Shown here: piece after piece, positions 32,514-34,230 of the stretch | Position numbering within the stretch: position 1 is the stretch's first letter | Layout: every line of letters starts with the position of its first letter | Source: an uncultured Clostridia bacterium | GTDB taxonomy: Bacteria > Bacillota > Peptococcia > Peptococcales > Peptococcaceae | Assembly: GCA_944391285.1 (NCBI GenBank) | Contig: CALXSY010000013.1 | Coordinates: forward strand, 1-48,504 | Length of the DNA stretch: 48,504 nucleotides | Direction: 5' to 3' | The notes under the pieces: model-generated | Seen by the model: the letters and a program-made list of their open reading frames with translations, nothing else | Told to the model about the DNA's origin: nothing | Database searches by the model: none | Program-made: the position numbers and the translations under genes

Positions 32514-32601
32514 CACAAAGCCCCTTTCACTTTTTCTTTCTTCAGAAATTACACAAATAATTTCTTTTTAATTGCTTTTTTATCAACTTTCACAATTTAC
32601 T

Positions 32602-32628
32602 ATAGCACATTTTCCTCAAATGCGCTAT
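32602..32628. repeat. 27-bp inverted repeat between divergent genes (operator-like)
   Basis: ATAGCACATTT (32602-32612) and AAATGCGCTAT (32618-32628) are inverted with one mismatch around TCCTC. The element lies between the divergent SLH and HPP genes, 46 bases from the HPP start, where a repressor site or leader hairpin could act. Confidence 0.55.
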
Positions 32629-32673
32629 ACTAAAATAGCTATTTTAAACATTTCATGGGAGGAAATTTTAAAA

Positions 32674-33177
32674 ATGCTTCATTATCCGAAATTTTTAAGC
32701 CAAACCCATCTTTTTTGCAAAATACCATTATCCGAACTTATAGGAACGGCTGTTGGCTGCTTTTGCGGCTTGGGGCTGGTTTCCCATTTAAGCATGCAGG
32801 AGCATATGCCCTTGCTGATTGCTTCTTTCGGAGCTACGTCTCTTTTATTGTTTGCCTACCCACAGGCGCCCATGGCTCAGCCCCGCAATGTAATCGGCGG
32901 GCATTTTATCTCTGCTTTGATCGGAGTGAGCTGCTACAATCTTTGGGGATTGAGCTGGTTATCCATAACCTTAGCCGCTACCCTTGCCATCTTAGCTATG
33001 CTTATCACCGATACTGCCCATCCGCCCGGAGGAGCTACAGCGCTGGTTGCCATTATGGGCGAAGCTGACTATTCCTTTGTTTTCACGCCTATTTTATTCG
33101 GCGCAGTTATTTTGGTCTGCGTAGCAATTATAGTCAATTATTTTACGCCCGGCAGGCATTATCCCCTTGAGAAATAA
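32674..33177 (+). CDS. HPP-family integral membrane protein
   Basis: 167 aa with four or five hydrophobic helices. The family motif is intact: FGATSLLLFAYPQAPMAQPRNVIGGH and DTAHPPGGATALVAI, the latter giving the HPP name. In cyanobacteria a relative moves nitrite; the function of bacterial HPP proteins is otherwise unclear. The ATG at 32674 has GGGAGG 11 bases upstream; the upstream extension from 32572 crosses the inverted repeat and is not conserved. It is single, divergent from the SLH gene. Confidence 0.9.
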   Translation: MLHYPKFLSQTHLFCKIPLSELIGTAVGCFCGLGLVSHLSMQEHMPLLIASFGATSLLLFAYPQAPMAQPRNVIGGHFISALIGVSCYNLWGLSWLSITLAATLAILAMLITDTAHPPGGATALVAIMGEADYSFVFTPILFGAVILVCVAIIVNYFTPGRHYPLEK

Positions 33178-33525
33178 AGCACAAGATAAAAGTATTTTTT
33201 GCATTTTTATGCATAATATTGCATAAATTATTACTCGTCCGGTTTCTGTTTCTGTGACTGTGATTAACATCACTTGTTTTCCACTTTATCCACAGTTGTG
33301 TGCTTATCTGCTGTGGATATTGTTTATAACTAGTCGCATTTTCGTTATATTCGCTAGAAACTATGTGGATTTCCTGTTAATAATGTTATTTTTTACACAC
33401 ATTTAAAATTAACAAGTTCCCTTTTTTAGGACAGTTTTTGCATTATTTTTTATGCATTTTCTGCATATTTAACCATTATTTACTTTCCTTATACTTCCAT
33501 CTTACTTCCCGGTTTTATCCCTCCT
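33178..33525. other. Gene-free convergent intergenic region with DnaA-box cluster and TGCAT arrays
   Basis: No ORF, terminator or gene start is needed in these 348 bases, since HPP and comF converge here. Candidate DnaA boxes are TTTTCCACT (33277-33285), TTATCCACA (33286-33294, perfect), TGTGGATAT (33312-33320, minus strand), TGTGGATTT (33364-33372, minus strand) and TTTTACACA (33391-33399). Nine-base arms TATCCACAG and CTGTGGATA form an inverted pair 15 bases apart. TGCAT occurs at 33200, 33210 and 33220, exactly 10 apart, and again at 33439, 33453 and 33462 on the other side. The stretch 33376-33420 is very AT-rich. A DnaA-binding reservoir or an origin-like site is inferred. Neither flank carries dnaA, dnaN or gyrase genes. 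Confidence 0.55.
33259..33274. promoter_or_regulatory. CRP/FNR-like palindrome
   Basis: TGTGATTAACATCACT matches the TGTGA-N6-TCACA pattern with one mismatch, and GTGAT/ATCAC is perfectly inverted. No plus- or minus-strand promoter is near, so a regulatory role is doubtful. Confidence 0.3.
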
Positions 33526-34230
33526 TTATTGGATCCCGCTGCAAAGAGTTATCCCGTAAATATCCCCTTTTGTCTGCTCATGCAGTATTTGGGCACAAGT
33601 TAGAATTGTTGCTCCGGTAGTGCATATATCATCTACGAGAATAATATCTTTTCCTATAATCTTTTGTTCGTTTTTGACTGCCAATGCTCCTTGCAAGCTC
33701 TTTTGTCTCTCGGCATAACTGAGAGTGCTTTGCCGAGGAGTATTTTTTATCTTTATCAACACATTTTCTGCATACTCTAAGCCGGTTTCCCGCGCAAGAT
33801 ATTTAGCTAAAAGGGCGCTTTGATTAAACTTGCGCTCCTTTAATCTCTCAGCAGAAATAGGCACCGGAATAATAATATCTCCTTTACTTACCAAAGGCGC
33901 CATCAATTTTGCCAGAGCCTCTGCCAGCCAGGGCTGACCTTTAAATTTAAACTCCAGCAATGTTTTTCGATATTCACCGCAATAAGGCCACAAGCTTTGA
34001 TTGCTTTTTAGATATTGGGGCCATTTACGGTGATTAGGACAGTTTTCTTCCGTCACGCCAAAGGTACCGCAGCGGCTGCAGCGGCAATGATTTTGCCTAT
34101 AAGCCGCCAATTTTTCCCGGCAGGCAGGGCAAATGCCGATTTGCTCCTGCTTTTTTTTGCACAATATACAAATACGGGGAGTGGGAAATATCATCTCCCA
34201 AAGGCTGTCTAATATTCCCAATTTTATCAA
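33526..34230 (-). CDS. comF: ComF-family phosphoribosyltransferase-like protein
   Basis: 234 aa. The N-terminal zinc-finger-like Cys pairs (CILCKKK, CPACREK, CRCSRCG) and the PRPP-binding motif ILVDDICTTGATI near 200 define ComF, which in naturally competent bacteria helps single-stranded DNA uptake. The centre has YCGEYRKTLLEFKFKGQPWLAEALAKLM and VPISAERLKERKFNQS, typical of the family. It starts six bases after the coiled-coil gene. ComF alone does not prove competence; other com genes are not in this window. Confidence 0.93.
   Translation of the reverse strand: MIKLGILDSLWEMIFPTPRICILCKKKQEQIGICPACREKLAAYRQNHCRCSRCGTFGVTEENCPNHRKWPQYLKSNQSLWPYCGEYRKTLLEFKFKGQPWLAEALAKLMAPLVSKGDIIIPVPISAERLKERKFNQSALLAKYLARETGLEYAENVLIKIKNTPRQSTLSYAERQKSLQGALAVKNEQKIIGKDIILVDDICTTGATILTCAQILHEQTKGDIYGITLCSGIQ

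Follow-up and report, generated by a model that had tools for sequence, protein, structure and literature searches.

The window, by which we mean the whole stretch of 48,504 nucleotides of DNA that was analysed, contains an intergenic stretch of 348 bp (positions 33178-33525) on which two genes converge. One of them encodes an HPP-family membrane protein (32572-33177, forward strand; PF04982, E 1e-51), and the other is comF (33526-34230, reverse strand), which encodes a double zinc ribbon and a phosphoribosyltransferase. An earlier note on this DNA had pointed out that only two gene ends meet here and that no promoter is needed, and the reading of both genes bears this out. The HPP-family gene is absent from that place in the other cluster-bearing genomes that were read. 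A cluster of DnaA boxes lies 3' of comF, as in relatives, and a CRP/FNR-like palindrome, TGTGATTAACATCACT, is found within the cluster region at 33258-33273.

Seen from comF, the element is made up of two abutting boxes that are separated by 17 bp from an inverted one, and another box is situated about 43 bp upstream; all offsets given here are counted from the first box of the pair. The first to be met in the window is the DnaA-like box TTATTAACA (33375-33383, reverse strand) at -54, an offset that is also occupied in G009, G002 and L126, followed by the DnaA-like box AAATCCACA (33364-33372, reverse strand) at -43, which is recurrent at other comF loci and at tsaD loci. The abutting pair consists of the degenerate box TTATAAACA (33321-33329, reverse strand) at offset 0 and the box ATATCCACA (33312-33320, reverse strand) at +9. 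After a spacer of 17 bp (33295-33311), which has a constant length but a variable sequence in family relatives, comes the perfect box TTATCCACA (33286-33294, forward strand) at +35, the inverted member of the conserved trio. The trio, taken in the comF direction, thus reads TTATAAACA-ATATCCACA-N17-TGTGGATAA, in the same orientation as in relatives. An outer inverted box, the DnaA-like TTTTCCACT (33277-33285, forward strand), follows at +44, and the corresponding place in G008 (L015) is taken by TTATCCCCA at +45.

The DnaA-box cluster claimed in the earlier note is real and not a product of chance. In 500 dinucleotide shuffles of the 348-bp stretch, 0.002 perfect boxes were expected and one is present, while two boxes with at most one mismatch stand against 0.14 expected (p 0.004). 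With up to two mismatches allowed there are 11 boxes where 1.6 were expected, a number that none of the 500 shuffles reached. The trio has exact spacing and 3 mismatches in its 27 positions, compared with 8 mismatches in the best shuffle. Several DnaA boxes within about 200 bp and outside oriC are what characterizes an extra-oriC cluster, and this is what the window has, here in the form of an abutting pair, a 17-bp gap and an inverted box directly 3' of comF.

To look for the same arrangement in relatives, we searched 46 genomes of the class for box-box-17 bp-inverted box with at most 3 mismatches. The pattern was matched in 10 of them, and the reversed pattern in none. Besides the window, seven other genomes of the family (G002, G005, G006, G007, G008, G009 and G010) have the trio, with its spacing exact, 44 to 199 bp past the stop codon of comF, and there is a match directly 3' of comF also in G015, which belongs to another family. 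When these are aligned, the invariant columns fall almost only within the boxes, and between them the 17-bp spacer keeps its length while the remainder drifts. Three genomes of the family, G001, G003 and G004, have no boxes after comF. In G020, from the same order, a pair of two mismatch-free boxes is situated 15 kb away from comF, adjoining a gene for a family-3 solute-binding protein like the one that follows comF in relatives. Judged by its sequence, the window site is a somewhat worn member of this conserved element. An ORF of about 32-60 amino acids with a motif like ERLxLxKLxxxV is found directly after comF in three loci of the order (L013, L018 and L022), and none of that type was seen in the window.

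The TGCAT repeats that flank the boxes have fared less well. The earlier note described two phased arrays, and the left one (33200-33224, forward strand) does have its copies at exact steps of 10 bases, at 33200, 33210 and 33220. The right copies (33439-33466, forward strand) start at 33439, 33453 and 33462, and with steps of 14 and 9 they are unphased. TGCAT as such is overrepresented, with 6 occurrences in the stretch against 0.9 expected in the 500 dinucleotide shuffles, but both groups lie outside the conserved element, and since the paired arrays are not conserved together with the boxes they are no evidence for the cluster. As a genome-wide motif the TGCAT triple has a single further occurrence in the same genome, where a tRNA-like gene and an unrelated ORF flank it. 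Among 40 relatives there is no near-identical copy of the whole stretch; the one exception is a segment of G010 that matches the right TGCAT part over 35 bp and precedes a signal-peptide-peptidase-like gene, not near comF. A 16-mer of the left array, TTGCATTTTTATGCAT (33199-33214), is present also in G004 (L291, 2281-2296), where it precedes the gene for a solute-binding protein after comF and so may be the operator of that gene; in the window it is perhaps an operator left behind.

The association with comF extends far beyond the family. In an unselected sample of 109 comF loci across the phylum, found by protein alone (30 + 79), perfect boxes occur within 400 bp downstream of comF in 27 loci and within 400 bp upstream in none (sign test 1.5e-8, although the genomes are related and the loci not independent). 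These 27 loci hold 43 perfect boxes, 38 of them in the orientation of comF. When two selected loci are added, the count is 47 against none upstream and none inside comF, and permuted 9-mers average 0.7. In a set of 126 loci, made up of the 109, the order set and one named locus, an abutting pair with at most 3 mismatches is found downstream of comF in 36, compared with 0 of 252 control stretches taken upstream of or inside comF. Measured from the pair, further boxes recur at -12 (21 loci), at -43 or -42 (11 loci) and, inverted, at +35 (8 loci), counts that do not represent independent events since the sampled genomes are related. By family codes, about 16 families have the cluster at comF. On the other hand, roughly three quarters of the comF loci of the phylum lack perfect boxes, and the site must therefore be dispensable.

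The complete trio pattern is found in 26 of 398 genomes of the phylum, and the reversed pattern in none. Some of these matches are directly after comF (G116, G127 and G015), eight are by tsaD and one is by dnaA. Three adjoin a DUF438-like gene (L126, L127 and L128; family f53), and genomes of f53 with such a trio also carry a cluster after comF (L247 and L283). Clusters with the pair geometry of the comF cluster are present after or beside tsaD, also known as gcp, in several families (L122-L124, L129, L132, L134-L136 and L153).

The tsaD loci connect the comF cluster to a known system. Bacillus subtilis has a cluster between gcp (tsaD) and ydiF that, like the one in the window, consists of several boxes in a short intergenic region between converging 3' ends, with no promoter. 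The tsaD loci of other families have an abutting pair, a -42 box and an inverted box as in the comF cluster, and this shared geometry ties the comF cluster to the B. subtilis gcp kind; the gcp cluster may itself, to judge from these sequences, be part of a widespread kind. The window cluster differs from it by being linked to comF and not to tsaD, after which the window genome has no boxes, and many comF clusters, unlike the gcp cluster, also have a Spo0A box whose position is fixed. Loss of the six DnaA-box clusters of B. subtilis leads to early initiation, an advance that is strong only when all six are lost (PMC5295017, PMC13220808). In the open papers that were searched we found no description of a comF-linked DnaA-box cluster or of a Spo0A box by comF, and the text of PMC4447404 makes no mention of comF. 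What is of interest is the family rather than the worn copy in the window.

The loci datA, DARS1 and DARS2 of Escherichia coli are likewise clusters of DnaA boxes in non-coding DNA, situated apart from oriC, and they control DnaA, as we propose for the window site. Compared with the MG1655 stretches surrounding these loci, the trio has at best 9 to 11 mismatches of 27, and their core arrangement is not shared. They work with IHF or Fis, and these loci as well as IHF are reported to be absent from B. subtilis (PMC13220808). E. coli DnaA prefers pairs of boxes that are 2 or 3 bp apart (PMC11317965), and at many comF loci a gap of 3 bp separates the boxes at -12 and 0, while those at 0 and +9 abut. 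A further cluster of the window's own genome (contig C7, 36963-37046; L007), with boxes at -42, -13, 0, +9 and +33, is located between divergent thioredoxin-like and YigZ-like genes.

The likeness to B. subtilis, together with the lack of fit to DARS and datA, favours a site that would hold DnaA or change its state, and we consider it fairly probable, on the evidence of sequence and position, that the stretch belongs to an old family of extra-origin DnaA-box clusters that are linked to comF in Bacillota and have that function. As for the earlier proposal of a DnaA titration or initiation-control site, the conserved position, the exact spacing and the analogy with the gcp cluster speak for it. 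The best reading, by analogy, would be a DnaA titration or control locus that in this genome is unlinked from any promoter. Because the spacing of the boxes is fixed (9, 26 and about 43 bp) and the intervening DNA drifts, we propose that they are occupied by an ordered DnaA multimer. Binding of DnaA would begin at the abutting pair and proceed to the inverted and upstream boxes, and the resulting complex could hold DnaA away from oriC or alter its state, and thereby help to time initiation. This role in timing is modelled on what the clusters of B. subtilis are thought to do. Most of what is known of extra-origin DnaA-box clusters comes from E. coli and B. subtilis, and the present one bears on the question whether Bacillota have conserved ones in common; a cluster beside the same gene in about 16 families, with nearly base-exact spacing, provides natural variants for studying the rules of DnaA assembly.

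Many of the relatives have a second kind of site at a fixed place. Read on the opposite strand, the heptamer TTCGACA has the sequence of a Spo0A box, TGTCGAA, for which the consensus is TG[TA]CGAA (PMC4285127), and among the 28 loci outside the order that have the pair there are 16 in which the heptamer starts at +53 to +56. Four of those loci also have it at -102 or -103, and in G020, of the window's order, it is present at both +56 and -104. Neither the window nor the cluster-bearing relatives of its family have a Spo0A-type box at these offsets, although the window genome contains spo0A. All genomes with the Spo0A-type box have spo0A, but so do 86% of all genomes, and this co-occurrence consequently proves nothing. 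Within the oriC of B. subtilis, the sites bound by Spo0A overlap with DnaA boxes, and Spo0A hinders DnaA there (PMC4285127, PMC7561715). The sequence of the heptamer and its fixed place suggest that it may be bound by Spo0A, and in many genomes a box at +55, in some also at -103, could allow Spo0A~P to act on the complex that DnaA would form. We tentatively suggest, with somewhat less than even confidence, that this is a composite DnaA/Spo0A element by comF, old in much of Bacillota, which would join the decisions on replication start and sporulation away from the origin. Such an element would comprise a DnaA multimer on the fixed boxes and Spo0A~P at +55 and -103, with the window as a member that has no Spo0A site, a composition that we hold just as loosely. 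Owing to the fixed Spo0A box, a possible connection between the control of replication and sporulation can be tested directly in a spore-former that grows in culture.

One may ask if the window copy still works. It could be a worn-out relic, where the ancestral cluster was functional and the window copy binds too little DnaA to matter, and we regard this as unlikely but deserving of serious attention. The two boxes of the pair, TTATAAACA and ATATCCACA, and the -43 box AAATCCACA fit such a history, as does the lack of the Spo0A box found in G020, and with only one perfect box and a degenerate pair the site may be decaying. Against this stand the perfect inverted box, the base-exact spacing, the extra inverted box TTTTCCACT and the 7-fold excess of near-boxes. 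As the site is partly degenerate and without a Spo0A box, its remaining activity is uncertain.

Another explanation is that the cluster is an operator, at which DnaA, with or without Spo0A, regulates the gene following comF, such as one for a solute-binding protein, a cold-shock protein or a ribosome hibernation factor. In most genomes the cluster precedes a gene of the same orientation, and several of the B. subtilis clusters are places where DnaA works as a transcription factor (PMC4447404). But the following gene varies (family-3 solute-binding protein, csp, hpf), as does its distance, and in the window the genes converge and need no promoter there. Spacing is constant among the boxes and between them and the Spo0A box but not relative to the gene that follows, and this argues that the boxes have a role of their own. 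An operator role in some genomes is possible, but as the general explanation it seems rather improbable to us.

That the conserved feature is instead one of RNA, for instance a terminator hairpin of comF formed by the inverted boxes, is very improbable. The inverted boxes are able to pair (CTGTGGATAA with TTATCCACAG), but many comF loci have the tandem pair and the upstream box only, without an inverted box, and in G009 the inverted box is TGTTGATAA, which breaks the stem and is still a DnaA-type box. Neither a terminator nor an Rfam match was found at the window site.

The earlier note also considered an origin-like element, and this part of its proposal finds no support. Bipartite origins of Firmicutes, which are placed upstream of dnaA and between dnaA and dnaN, do resemble the comF clusters in their DnaA boxes, which in B. 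subtilis are overlapped by Spo0A boxes (PMC4285127), but an oriC is expected beside dnaA or dnaN and at a switch of GC skew, and the window site is away from both genes, in a region where the skew is evenly negative with no local change. The only dnaA above the cut-off is on contig C4 (57187-58566), preceded by the boxes TTATCCACA, TTATACACA, TTATGCACA and TTATCAACA and with an rnpA-like gene on its other side. Genes for dnaN and recF-like and gyrB-like products, named from reading their translations, come after serS on contig C16 (21260 onward), likewise preceded by DnaA boxes. Complete genomes have the cluster-bearing comF about 0.1 to 0.4 Mb away from dnaA (391 kb of 3.72 Mb in G158, about 125 kb of 3.07 Mb in G245). 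Although the boxes adjoin AT-rich DNA, and dnaA and dnaN on different contigs could mean that the parts of the origin are scattered, the position of these genes elsewhere and the unchanged skew speak against a replication origin or half of one at the window site, and we give it next to no credence. The layout of the origin in this genome looks unusual, with dnaA apart from dnaN and its recF-like and gyrB-like followers (L225, L286). Around dnaA the skew has no clear switch over 20 kb, and the gene is followed by an amidotransferase-like ORF and then by groEL on the other strand.
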